Assembly (NCBI RefSeq): GCF_900258515.1
Contig: NZ_LT984884.1
Location: forward strand, 3,558,077-3,622,076
Reading direction: 5' to 3'
Length of the DNA: 64,000 bases
From: Lentibacillus sp. Marseille-P4043
GTDB taxonomy: Bacteria > Bacillota > Bacilli > Bacillales > Amphibacillaceae
Shown here: piece by piece, positions 30,987-35,134 of the stretch
How positions within the stretch are numbered: position 1 is the stretch's first letter
Layout: every line of letters begins with the position of its first letter
Translations under genes and position numbers: made by a program
The notes under the pieces: generated by a model
What the model was told of the DNA's origin: nothing
Seen by the model: the letters and a program-made list of their open reading frames with translations, nothing else
Database searches by the model: none

Positions 30987-33014
30987 TTACACAGCCTCTC
31001 GTGCTTTCCCCTGCTGCATTTGATACATTTGATGGTATAAGCCGTTCTGTCTGATTAGTTCATCATGATTTCCCTCTTCTACTATTTTACCATGTTCCAG
31101 CACGAAAATCGCATCCGCTTGCTGGATTGTTGACAAACGGTGGGCAATAACGAGTGTTGTACGACCTTTTTTTAATACCTCCAGCGCTTGTTGAATGATG
31201 TTCTCTGTTTCCGTATCGATATTCGCTGTTGCTTCATCGAGAATTAAAATAGCTGGATCAAATGCCAATGCCCGTGCAAACGAAAGCAACTGTCTTTCAC
31301 CTAATGAAAATGTCGTACCACCCTCTGTCACCTTTTCATCATATTTTCCAGGTAGCTTTTCAATAAATCGATCCGCACCTACAGCACGTAACGCATCAAT
31401 CGCCATTTCCCGGGTAATATTCGGATCATTCATCGTTACATTTGAAATGATTGTACCGGAAAATAAGAACGGATCCTGCAGTACAATTCCCATATAGCTT
31501 CTAACCTGCTGGCGTGACCATTCGCTTGTTTTCTGACCATCTATGGTAATTTCCCCTTTTTGAGGATCATAGAAGCGAAATAATAAATTCATAATCGAGC
31601 TTTTTCCTGATCCCGTATGACCTACAAAGGCCGCTGTTTGACCTGCATCAACCTGAAAGGACATATCATGAATGACATAATCCACATCATTATAAGCAAA
31701 TGAGACGTGATCAAAACGAATGTTGCCGCGATATTTCTTAATTTTATTATTCTTTACCTCTTCACCATCATGATCGATTAACTCAAAGACACGCCCCCCA
31801 GCTACTCGCGCCTGTTCAATCAATGGTAGCTGGTTGATAATATCCTCAATTGGTTCAAATAGACGGTTTAAATAATCGACAAACGCATATAAAACACCAA
31901 TCGAGATGATGCTACCTGGTTCTAATGAAGCTGATCCGAAGTACCAAATGAATCCAACAAACGCTAAATTACGAAATACGGTTACAAGGTTATACGATGT
32001 AAGCGCACTTAGTTTAACAAGTTTACGATGGTACTTGAAATTACGTTCGTTTAACACCTCGAATTCTTCCTTTGTTTTTTTCTCGCGACGAAAGGCTTGA
32101 ATAATCGGCATGCCTTGAATTGCTTCATTAATATTGCCGTTTATTTCACTCACTGTAGAACGGATTACTTTATTATATTTCGTTCCAAAATGCTTATATA
32201 CCTTCATCCAGCCAATAATCAGTGGGATAAGCAGCAAACTAATAGCTGCTAGTTTCACATCTAAAATAAACAGGGCAATAAAAATACCCGCCATGTAAAT
32301 AATACTCGTTACAACAATCGATAACACCCGTTCATACAAGTCACGGATTGCTTCTGTATCATTCGTAATACGAGCCACGATTTTTCCTGCTGGTTGATCA
32401 ACATAGTAATCAATCGGAATTCGTTGCGTGTGTGCAAAAATATCGTTGCGCATTTTTTTCACAATTTGGTTGGACGCCTTTTGTAATAAAAAGGTCTGAA
32501 AAAATTGAAAAAAACCTGCGATAACGAGTAGCACCATATACAACCCAAGCAAGAAAATAATCGGTCCTTGTTCAGGCTTGAAAAATGGATATATTTCTGA
32601 TAACGAAAGCTTTTTTCCTGTAAACGATAATGTCTCGTTCGCCTGCTCAATCGAGATGGTGTCTCCACTGACACTTCGCTTACCAGATAGCGGAACTTCT
32701 TCCGTGACAAAATAATAATCATGCCCAACTTGCAAAACGGTTGCCATACCTTCTGTTTGATCTTTTTCCGTCGTGCGATCTGCCCGTTTGTAAAAATGAT
32801 CCCCATAGGAAACGGTATATTTATCATTATCCGACTCAACTTCCTGCCAATTGCCTTCTACCCCAAGAATGTGGTCGTCAATAACGGTTTTTGCAATTAA
32901 AGGACCCGCTAATTCAAGTGCAGTAGCAACGACCAGACAAACCAAACCAATCAAAATGCCCTTCTTAAACTGTAATGCATAATTTACTAATCGTTTTTCT
33001 GTCGATTGCTTCAT
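30987..33014 (-). CDS. bmrD: Heterodimeric multidrug ABC exporter subunit BmrD (YheH)
   Basis: 675-residue half-transporter, with six membrane helices and a C-terminal ATPase. An insertion of about 100 residues between the first two helices (around 45-130, with SYGDHFYKRAD) is the extracellular domain typical of BmrD. Walker A is GHTGSGKSS, Walker B ILILDEA with the catalytic Glu. The signature is degenerate, SLGERQ in place of LSGGQ. That complements BmrC and gives one active and one degenerate ATP site. Its ATG overlaps the bmrC stop codon (TAATG). Confidence 0.92.
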   Translation of the reverse strand: MKQSTEKRLVNYALQFKKGILIGLVCLVVATALELAGPLIAKTVIDDHILGVEGNWQEVESDNDKYTVSYGDHFYKRADRTTEKDQTEGMATVLQVGHDYYFVTEEVPLSGKRSVSGDTISIEQANETLSFTGKKLSLSEIYPFFKPEQGPIIFLLGLYMVLLVIAGFFQFFQTFLLQKASNQIVKKMRNDIFAHTQRIPIDYYVDQPAGKIVARITNDTEAIRDLYERVLSIVVTSIIYMAGIFIALFILDVKLAAISLLLIPLIIGWMKVYKHFGTKYNKVIRSTVSEINGNINEAIQGMPIIQAFRREKKTKEEFEVLNERNFKYHRKLVKLSALTSYNLVTVFRNLAFVGFIWYFGSASLEPGSIISIGVLYAFVDYLNRLFEPIEDIINQLPLIEQARVAGGRVFELIDHDGEEVKNNKIKKYRGNIRFDHVSFAYNDVDYVIHDMSFQVDAGQTAAFVGHTGSGKSSIMNLLFRFYDPQKGEITIDGQKTSEWSRQQVRSYMGIVLQDPFLFSGTIISNVTMNDPNITREMAIDALRAVGADRFIEKLPGKYDEKVTEGGTTFSLGERQLLSFARALAFDPAILILDEATANIDTETENIIQQALEVLKKGRTTLVIAHRLSTIQQADAIFVLEHGKIVEEGNHDELIRQNGLYHQMYQMQQGKAREAV

Positions 33015-34759
33015 TAGGAGACCTCCTCATCTGCTAACTGCTGTAATTGATATTGTTGTTTATACCAACCATCACGCAGCATTAATTCCTCATGTGTACC
33101 TTCTTCAACAATTTGCCCATTCTCGAGCACAATAATGTGATCCGCATGTGTAACTGCTGACATTCTGTGTGCCGCGATAAAGGTTGTTTTTCCGCTGCGC
33201 TCATTTCGCAAATGCTCCATAATTTTTGCCTCGGTTTTTCCATCAACTGCTGACATGGAATCATCCAAGATCAAAATTTGTGGATTTTTAATAAATGCTC
33301 TTGCTAATGCAACACGCTGCTTCTGTCCTCCAGATAAGGTCACACCACTTTCTCCTACCTCTGTATCAAGTCCGTTTGGCAGTTGTTTTATATCATCCAG
33401 AAAATGCGCTAAATCTAACACACGGTATATTTCTTCATCTGTTGCATCTGATTTACCAAACTGAATATTTTCTCGAATTGTTTTGGAAAACATCATTTGA
33501 TCCTGTGGTACATAGCCAATCCAGGAACGAATCTGTTCCAAACTAATGGCTTGCAAATCAGAATTTGATACGTTGATTTTGCCAATTAGACCTGGATATT
33601 GGCGGAGCATGAGTTTAAATAAAGTCGTCTTTCCTGCCCCGGTCTTTCCCACAATCCCAATTGTTTGCCCTTGCTTCACTTCCAGATTGATGTTCTGTAG
33701 CTGCCTTGTTTCTGTGAAAGGATAGGAAAAGGAAACATCCACAAACGAAATTGACTCAACCGTTGAGACCTGTTTCGGATTTTCTGTATTTTTTACGTCT
33801 GCTTCATAATCCAATGTTTCGTTAACGCGATCCAACGACGCATTCCCACGCTGTAAAATATTAATTAATTCCCCAACAGCAAACATCGGCCAAATTAACA
33901 TTCCAAGGTAAACATTGAATGTAACCAAATCGCCAAGTGTTATCCAATTTTGAAAGACTAATAATGCCCCATATCCAAGTCCAATTGTATAAGATAGACC
34001 AACAAGAATTTTCATCGTTGGTTCAAACAATGCATCAATTTTCGCTACGTCAATATTTTTTTGATAGACATCTTCTGTCATCGCCTGAAAGCGCCCTTCT
34101 TCCTGTCTTTCTTGAACAAAGGCACGAATAACTCGAACACCACGAATGGACTCTAATACGTCATTGTTCATTTCACCAAAAGCCGCTTGTGCCTTCATGA
34201 AACGAGCATGGATAGCTGAACCATATTTATTCATAACTGCTGCCATAATTGGCAATGGGATCAAGGCAGCAAGTGTTAATTTCCAACTAATGGTAAACCC
34301 CATCATTGCGACAATCATCAGCATGAAGATGCTTGAATCAACAAGTGTTAGAACACCAAAACCAGCCGTTAGTTGAATCGACCGCAGATCATTGGTAGCT
34401 CGGGCCATCAAATCACCTGTTCGATATTTCCCAAAAAAAGTTGGCGTCATCGTTAAAAAATGATCCATTAATTTGCTCCTGGTCCAACGTTCCAAAATTG
34501 CAGCACCACTAAACAAGGTGAAGTCCCATAAAAATGAAATCGCATAATGAACAAATGTTAATAAAAGATATCCCGCTACAATCATCACCAATAATTTTGC
34601 AGTCAATGTTTCAATCTGGATTTTATCAATAGCAAACCCAACTAATTTAGGTGGAATCAATCCAATAGCACTAGCAATAATTAAAGCAACAATCGCAAAT
34701 ACATACCGCTTCCAATAATGTTTAAAAAACCAATCTAACTTCTTAAAAACCTGAAACAA
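33014..34759 (-). CDS. bmrC: Heterodimeric multidrug ABC exporter subunit BmrC (YheI)
   Basis: About 581-residue half-transporter with six membrane helices and an ATPase. Walker A is GKTGAGKTT, the signature LSGGQKQR is canonical, and Walker B ends in LDDS, so the catalytic Glu is replaced by Asp. This is the known degenerate half of the BmrC/BmrD pair. The start is uncertain. TTG 34759 (MFQVFKKLDWFF) has AGGTGA five bases upstream and matches the expected beginning; GTG 34768 lies inside that ribosome site. Transcription comes through a long leader with two terminators. Confidence 0.9.
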   Translation of the reverse strand: MFQVFKKLDWFFKHYWKRYVFAIVALIIASAIGLIPPKLVGFAIDKIQIETLTAKLLVMIVAGYLLLTFVHYAISFLWDFTLFSGAAILERWTRSKLMDHFLTMTPTFFGKYRTGDLMARATNDLRSIQLTAGFGVLTLVDSSIFMLMIVAMMGFTISWKLTLAALIPLPIMAAVMNKYGSAIHARFMKAQAAFGEMNNDVLESIRGVRVIRAFVQERQEEGRFQAMTEDVYQKNIDVAKIDALFEPTMKILVGLSYTIGLGYGALLVFQNWITLGDLVTFNVYLGMLIWPMFAVGELINILQRGNASLDRVNETLDYEADVKNTENPKQVSTVESISFVDVSFSYPFTETRQLQNINLEVKQGQTIGIVGKTGAGKTTLFKLMLRQYPGLIGKINVSNSDLQAISLEQIRSWIGYVPQDQMMFSKTIRENIQFGKSDATDEEIYRVLDLAHFLDDIKQLPNGLDTEVGESGVTLSGGQKQRVALARAFIKNPQILILDDSMSAVDGKTEAKIMEHLRNERSGKTTFIAAHRMSAVTHADHIIVLENGQIVEEGTHEELMLRDGWYKQQYQLQQLADEEVS

Positions 34760-34798
34760 TTCCCTCACCTGCTTTGTTTAAAAATCCAATACTTATTT

Positions 34799-34888
34799 TC
34801 ACTTAATTGTTGACCTTTTACATTTTTCTCCCTCTCCCATACGTTTTTGTTCAATAAAAAAGCACACGCCTATGACGTATGCTTTCAT
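34799..34888 (-). CDS. Possible second leader peptide before bmrC (29 codons)
   Basis: Short ORF beginning MKAYVIGVCFFIEQKR, with ATG at 34888 and an AAAGGTG ribosome-site candidate nine bases upstream inside a GGGG/CCCC hairpin. Codons 2-11 are exactly the terminator stem at 34856-34885. Translation through it would melt the terminator and let RNA polymerase reach bmrC. It has no recognised homologue. It ends 39 bases before the bmrC start. Confidence 0.4.
   Translation of the reverse strand: MKAYVIGVCFFIEQKRMGEGEKCKRSTIK
34856..34885 (-). terminator. Second attenuator terminator upstream of bmrC
   Basis: AAAGCATACG pairs with CGTGTGCTTT (10 bp, one G-U) closing a 7-base loop, followed by T-rich sequence. 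It lies inside the second short ORF. Confidence 0.7.
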
Positions 34889-34920
34889 AATTAGGGGCAC
34901 CTTTCCCCCTTAAATAACAA

Positions 34921-34947
34921 AAAGGCCACAGACATATGTGACCTTTC
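34921..34947 (-). terminator. First attenuator terminator upstream of bmrC
   Basis: AAAGGTCACA / TGTGGCCTTT plus TTGTTATTT. Its 5' arm (AAGGTCACA) is fully complementary to TGTGACCTT within leader peptide codons 20-24, so an antiterminator can form instead. Confidence 0.75.
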
Positions 34948-34974
34948 GCAAAACAAGATAAAGAATATGTATAA

Positions 34975-35070
34975 CTACAATTCGTTTCTGTTATTTGTGA
35001 AGGTCACACAACATATGAAATTTTGGTTCGTTTGTTGACGTTGACGTAGTAGTTGCAGTTTGTTTTCCAT
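34975..35070 (-). CDS. Leader peptide (BmrB-type) controlling bmrCD
   Basis: 31-residue ORF (MENKLQLLRQRQQTNQNF, then ICCVTFTNNRNEL) with a perfect GGAAGGAGGT ribosome site and a consensus promoter 30 bases upstream. Near its end the RNA can fold as TGTGA-CCT-TCACA, or pair with the 5' arm of the terminator at 34921-34947. Such a layout is the hallmark of ribosome-mediated attenuation, as reported for B. subtilis bmrB ahead of bmrC-bmrD. Ribosome stalling by translation inhibitors would then control exporter expression. I cannot check homology with BmrB. Confidence 0.75.
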   Translation of the reverse strand: MENKLQLLRQRQQTNQNFICCVTFTNNRNEL

Positions 35071-35105
35071 TGTCGTGACCTCCTTCCATTTTTTGATTCC
35101 TAATA

Positions 35106-35134
35106 ATTATAGTATTAGCAAAATTTAAAGTCAA
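35106..35134 (-). promoter_or_regulatory. Sigma-A promoter of the bmrCD leader
   Basis: On the minus strand TTGACT (35134-35129), 17-bp spacer, TATAAT (35111-35106). The transcript would start near 35099. Confidence 0.8.

Follow-up and report, generated by a model that had tools for sequence, protein, structure and literature searches.

A probable BmrB-type attenuator and a conserved second terminator-like hairpin upstream of bmrCD in Lentibacillus

We consider it likely that the leader of the bmrC-bmrD operon in Lentibacillus sp. Marseille-P4043 consists of a transcription attenuator of the ribosome-mediated BmrB type and, after it, a second intrinsic terminator, T2, which is conserved, and that ORF2, an open frame running over T2, is there by chance. 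When the leader was compared computationally with those of relatives, its mutually exclusive pairings proved to be conserved, T2 was conserved and covarying, and ORF2 was not conserved. An earlier note on this DNA had proposed a second, translated gate at T2; its observation is partly confirmed and its interpretation partly supported, and the unexpected result lies in the relatives, where a different small ORF, uORF2, was found 3′ of T2.

The window analysed here is a stretch of 64,000 nucleotides, and all features of the locus lie on its minus strand. The promoter, ORF1 (31 codons), T1, T2 and the open ORF2 (29 codons) are all where the earlier note had placed them:

35106..35134 (-), sigma-A-type promoter TTGACT-17-TATAAT, matching 11 of 12 consensus positions
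35074..35083 (-), element 1 (GGAGGTCACG), the SD region of ORF1 and the complement of element 2
34975..35070 (-), ORF1, a leader peptide of 31 codons, MENKLQLLRQRQQTNQNFICCVTFTNNRNEL
35014..35016 (-), conserved AUA codon (I19), 9 nt 5′ of GTGAC in element 2
34999..35008 (-), element 2 (TGTGACCTTC) within ORF1, whose partner is element 1 or the 5′ arm of T1
34921..34946 (-), terminator T1, with element 3 as 5′ arm and element 4 as 3′ arm, -13.9 kcal/mol
34859..34885 (-), terminator T2, AAAGCATACGTCATAGGCGTGTGCTTT plus U-tract, -16.3 kcal/mol
34799..34888 (-), ORF2 of the earlier note (MKAYVIGVCFFIEQKRMGEGEKCKRSTIK), 29 codons, in our judgement open by chance
34818..34823 (-), start-stop pair AUG-UAA preceded by an SD-like stretch; two congeners have one similarly placed
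33014..34768 (-), bmrC orthologue
30987..33014 (-), bmrD, the second half-transporter, whose ATG shares one base with the bmrC stop

For the first transporter gene, B. subtilis YheI/BmrC is the orthologue (754 bits, E 6.6e-226), and the bmrC and bmrD products each carry ABC membrane and ATPase domains. The bmrC start is probably the TTG at 34759 rather than the GTG at 34768, because relatives begin at ATG-TTT-CAG (MFQVFKK) there. The same type of promoter was seen by eye 5′ of ORF1 in many relatives; promoter-like sites in the region (two, versus 4.8 in shuffles) are not above chance. A standard terminator scan reported T1 only, T2 coming from a separate hairpin scan and folding. None of 4227 Rfam families matches the window at gathering score, and the nine sub-threshold matches are all to unrelated families.

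For comparison, 110 bmrC loci (the best 80 of 185 matches, and 30 loci from 61 genomes) yielded 98 distinct upstream regions, to which 30 further loci, taken from 145 matching among 398 genomes, were added to give 128. A script assigned ORF1 and at least one terminator in 86 of the 98 leaders and two terminators in 75; these assignments include four leaders in which T2 was called T1 (L097, L100, L105 and L106), the Terribacillus group without T1, and two doubtful cases (L016 and L038), and all of these rows were kept in the pairing and ORF2 tests.

Pairings of ORF1 with its own SD region and with T1

The TGTGACCTTC segment of ORF1 is predicted to form a duplex with its own SD region at -19.1 kcal/mol and with the 5′ arm of T1 at -17.3 kcal/mol. 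Both pairings are conserved among relatives. That between the SD region and ORF1 had a mean z of -3.75, and 56 of 75 leaders beat all 40 shuffles (1.8 expected); that between the T1 5′ arm and ORF1 had a mean z of -2.83, with 40 of 75 leaders beating all 40 shuffles. A control pairing of the T1 3′ arm with ORF1 gave a z of -0.07 (3 of 75). When partners were swapped across species, the own partner was better than foreign ones in 56 of 75 leaders for the SD region and in 55 of 75 for T1. The pairing of the 3′ part of ORF1 with the 5′ arm of T1, proposed in the earlier note, is supported against both shuffles and foreign partners. The paired bases drift jointly between leaders, for example GGTCACG/CGTGACC, GGCCACG/CGTGGCC and GGGTTACG/CGTAACCC/GGGTTGCG; in these examples ORF1 was chosen by best pairing, which was not the case in the shuffle and foreign-partner tests.

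By this anatomy, ORF1 and T1 are predicted to constitute a three-state, BmrB-type ribosome-mediated attenuator. A leader ORF with a ribosome-binding site and mutually exclusive anti-antiterminator, antiterminator and terminator structures were all found computationally, and the leader lies directly 5′ of bmrC-bmrD orthologues, as expected of a member of this type. The terminator does not lie inside the leader ORF, as it does in the B. subtilis annotation, a property that is probably not defining: T1 starts 28 nt past the ORF1 stop, and where the script assigned both terminators (75 leaders) the hairpin taken as T1 starts at least 14 nt past it. ORF1 has no match in Pfam.

An NFI-type motif occurs in 53 of 86 ORF1s and is absent from the other 33. 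AUA encodes the Ile of this motif in 47 of 53 cases, compared with 16 of 90 other Ile codons in ORF1s and 617 of 4395 in bmrC, and the motif's Asn and Phe codons vary synonymously. Of the 47 in which a GTGAC-type element was found, 35 have it at a spacing of exactly 9 nt from the AUA. We infer that the AUA could be a built-in hesitation that times when element 2 becomes covered. When rare codons of the B. subtilis leader were replaced, basal read-through fell and lincomycin induction stayed intact, according to the mutants described in PMC4191407.

The switch would operate as follows. If ORF1 is not translated, or is translated fast, the SD region would hold element 2 or the ribosome would cover it, allowing T1 to form and stop transcription. 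A ribosome stalled by a 50S drug at the start of ORF1, or close to it, would cover the SD region and leave element 2 free to pair with the 5′ arm of T1, which would then be blocked. By analogy with B. subtilis, translation-dependent induction by 50S antibiotics is expected for this leader. The drug response, the ribosome positions and termination in vivo at T1 and T2 are what we infer from this arrangement.

T2 and the frame across it

The second terminator reported in the earlier note held up as a conserved, terminator-like hairpin with a covarying stem. A motif removed 13 of the 75 two-terminator leaders, and the remaining 62 hairpins align with the consensus GCATACGTC..GACGTATGC. In this alignment 99.1% of cells are paired, a figure that is partly by construction because the rows were picked as hairpins, and both sides have changed in 10 of 12 pairs; the covariation score was 0.450, versus 0.227 when shuffled and at most 0.151 when slid. 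Among the loci listed, T2 is present in 85 of 98 leaders, 62 by the motif and 23 of the other 36 by a covariance model (E 0.01). It was not found by either in 13 (L073, L075, L080, L117, L028, L031, L034, L074, L069, L071, L070, L030 and L038), and the model at E 0.01 matched 0 of the extra 30 loci. Scanned against whole genomes with stricter filters and at most 150 candidates per genome, so that matches can be missed, it gave at least 28 matches in 25 of 41 genomes, 20 of them situated 29–451 nt 5′ of bmrC and one more in an orphan leader, L168. From the leader counts, the covariation and these bmrC-centred genome matches, T2 is both widely conserved and fairly specific to this leader. Matches away from bmrC in three genomes (G042, G005 and G040) were set aside as ordinary terminators, with no leader ORF seen 5′ of them by eye; G022:C34, G038 and, at a single site on both strands, G003:C29 hold further ones.

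In seven leaders of the Terribacillus group (L027, L087, L092, L095, L102, L108 and L109), T2 is kept and the script detected no T1; reading L102 by eye did not reveal one either. The SD region and ORF1 of this group are complementary over 9–11 bases of changed sequence (AAAGGAGGAGC/GCTCCTCCTTT in L102). Because T2 is found there without T1, it may serve alone as the regulated terminator in this group.

The earlier note had proposed ORF2 as a possible translated antibiotic-sensing gate, with codons 2–11 as the stem of T2 (we place the stem at codons 2–10). A ribosome on this frame would open or close T2. The frame is indeed open over 29 codons, and an SD-like GAAAGG lies 11 nt 5′ of it. This stretch (GAAAGG/AGGTG) occupies the loop, rather than the stem, of a small hairpin of -9.2 kcal/mol, and structure alone therefore does not exclude initiation. 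In the congener L012, T2 is 24 nt long compared with 21 nt in the window, which would preserve the frame. Against this, SD-led ATG ORFs (match of at least 5) running through T2 occur at chance frequency: 2 of 32 close leaders (at least 74% identity) versus 2.97 with shuffled spacers, and 8 of 75 leaders overall versus 7.24. Looser settings gave 9 versus 10.5, 18 versus 18.4, 11 versus 9.3 and 20 versus 18.0, all within one SD. The start codon is missing in both congeners read, being ACG in L012 and TGG in L039, and the 23-nt T2 of L039 disrupts the frame. ORF2 has no match in Pfam. On the shuffled-spacer comparison we reject ORF2 as a conserved coding frame, and we give a sensing function for it next to no credence. 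The comparison of relatives' leaders that the earlier note had called for upheld the ORF1 pairings, T1 and T2, all conserved and covarying, and left ORF2 at chance level; that note had staked its reading on conservation of ORF2 where ORF1 is kept, and such conservation was not found.

In nine tests over 75 leaders, the T2 arms formed no clear conserved helix with ORF1, the ORF1–T1 spacer, the T1–T2 spacer or the 65 nt downstream (where the T2 3′ arm beat all shuffles in 4 of 75). One of the nine, the T2 3′ arm with T1, showed an excess (mean z -0.99; all shuffles were beaten in 11 of 75 leaders, 1.8 expected), and this pairing was rejected, as the own partner beat foreign ones in 38 of 75 leaders only. 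Nothing in the sequence points to T2 being switched by a ribosome. A polymerase past T1 would still have to clear T2, which, without a conserved antiterminator partner, would act as a fixed second brake or as one set by an unseen factor. T2 may be regulated after all, because a fixed strong terminator following a regulated one would cap induction. Regulation might then act in trans, with a protein or RNA that recognises GCAYRCGTC..GRYGTRTGC and lets polymerase through. In keeping with this, the T2 sequence is preserved beyond the needs of pairing, with one invariant stem base per arm and several at 90% or more, and the genome matches of its model fall mostly at bmrC (20 of at least 28); the compensated changes in the stem pairs, on the other hand, are those of a plain hairpin. 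We know of no factor that acts on T2, and think trans regulation rather unlikely. Far less probable still is that the leader serves chiefly as a short RNA of its own, with 3′ ends at T1 or T2. This would suit L168 (G018:C30:44500-49000), a leader without bmrCD in a genome where no close BmrC was found, which keeps ORF1, a T1-like hairpin, T2 and a later upstream ORF ending GDGG-stop. The gene that follows it looks, by eye, like the window's serine protease gene downstream of bmrD, and L168 is probably, and more simply, a deletion scar in which the leader was retained; the position of T2 5′ of bmrC in 85 of the 98 distinct loci among those listed also argues against a stand-alone RNA.

uORF2, a different small ORF in relatives

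An SD-led ORF of 17–27 residues, ending 11–44 nt 5′ of bmrC and lying 3′ of T2, was found at 58 of 128 loci (45 of the 98 and 13 of the additional 30). Its C-termini (DWKESG, DWNDDG, EMEGG and DPESG, for example; L088, L096, L102 and L128 are example loci) end in [DE][SG]G in 47 of the 58, DDG in seven and another xxG in four. In shuffled segments, which preserve base composition only, the pattern occurred 0.1 times (maximum 1 in 30 rounds). The stop codon is UAG in 50 cases, UAA in four and UGA in four, compared with 46 UAA, 22 UAG and 18 UGA among 86 ORF1 stops. Differences by codon position numbered 959, 576 and 3044 in the last three codons. Single-base differences were synonymous versus not in a ratio of 1750/915, compared with 152/2159 and 189/1855 in shifted frames; as the sequences are related and were counted pair by pair, the differences do not stand for independent events. 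uORF2 has a strong coding signature. One of the loci carrying it has a BmrC fragment 94% identical to that of B. subtilis.

On a BmrC tree of 128 rows, a quick tree with 42 of its 125 inner branches drawn open, the uORF2 label requires 8 changes, versus a shuffled mean of about 42. uORF2 is present in 0 of the 49 rows of the window's clade. This clade nests among lineages that have uORF2, which suggests that it lost the ORF. Some related leaders contain an AUG-UAA before bmrC, in many of them about 55 nt from it, with an SD-like stretch alongside in the window's genus. ATGTAA was found in 14 of 47 related leaders versus 1.9 ± 1.4 in dinucleotide shuffles, an excess that does not amount to that many independent events because the rows are related. 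The AUG-UAA is possibly a remnant of a lost upstream ORF.

No sign was found that uORF2 is a translation attenuator working through RNA structure: four pairings had mean z values of 0.14, -0.06, -0.07 and -0.49 (for the fourth, 3 of 58 beat all shuffles versus 1.4 expected), the fold z was 0.26, and no RNA structure hiding the bmrC start was found at the uORF2 loci. We hypothesise that uORF2 works through slow termination at UAG, on messages that are already beyond the terminators. At the DNA level, a pattern for the WK..SG-UAG end occurred away from bmrC at 7 places in 6 of 398 genomes of the class; in the 14 genomes with a copy at bmrC it was present once in 13 and twice in one. In L033 and L035, a terminator-like hairpin with a poor T-tract lies over the uORF2 stop codon (GGTTAGCT..AGCTAACC in L033).

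Combining these elements, bmrCD of Bacillales might be under three serial RNA gates: the ORF1/T1 switch; T2, recognised by its sequence; and, 3′ of both, a conserved peptide of 17–27 residues, mostly ending [DE][SG]G-UAG. By slowing or arresting RF1-dependent termination, this peptide would tune how well the bmrC message is translated or how stable it is. The third gate would have been lost in the window's clade, with the SD-led AUG-UAA perhaps its remnant in the genus. We put this scheme forward tentatively, with well under even confidence.

Comparison with known systems

Neither T2 nor uORF2 was described in the titles and opening lines of the papers listed by the literature searches; the Term-seq data of Dar et al. 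2016 may contain either. The bmrCD attenuator of B. subtilis has so far comprised one terminator and one leader frame, in the account given by PMC4191407. The comparison adds a conserved second terminator in halophilic Bacillaceae and, for Bacillus-like and Halobacillus-like lineages, a further leader peptide that is conserved.

That attenuation by BmrB is known in B. subtilis, as the earlier note stated, is supported by the experiments of Reilman et al. 2014 (PMC4191407), which demonstrated a translation-dependent, lincomycin-inducible attenuator at bmrCD whose inducible read-through needs leader translation and lincomycin-sensitive ribosomes. The window has the same transporter operon as that system, again with a leader ORF, three structures that exclude one another and a stop to transcription before bmrC, and induction by 50S drugs is the expected response here too. 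It differs in having two terminators, with T1 beyond the ORF1 stop, instead of the single one inside the annotated bmrB frame of PMC4191407, and, unlike bmrB as presented there, ORF1 is short and SD-led, with its own SD as one pairing partner.

Our comparison raises the question of whether bmrB, as annotated, is the true leader frame in the B. subtilis group. Three loci whose BmrC is a close relative of the B. subtilis protein (L125, L126 and L127) have an SD-led leader ORF of 23–24 codons (MPRNLCVYQTVSYWRGKPYVLFD and kin) in a frame that differs from the GTG-started bmrB-like frame. The latter passes through the terminator in L125 and L127 and stops before it in L126; because of this early end, the frame comparison is suggestive, not decisive. 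The genome of L123 has a second GGAGGTCAC-N-ATG site (G000:C1:193402-193417).

The vmlR leader of B. subtilis, as described in PMC9226507, is similar to that of the window in its upstream ORF, an anti-antiterminator holding the ORF, a terminator and antibiotic-specific read-through. It differs in its three-codon ORF, single attenuation terminator, SD-sequestering hairpin and ABC-F gene (PMC9226507). The mefA/msrD operon, with mefAL and msrDL, likewise combines two leader peptides with two attenuators within a single antibiotic-resistance operon, and differs in that each attenuator lies 5′ of a different gene, on the description in PMC10314930. Stalling of MsrDL at termination may offer a model for the stop-codon end of uORF2 in the relatives; MsrDL prefers UAA in that report (PMC10314930), whereas uORF2 has UAG in 50 of 58 cases.
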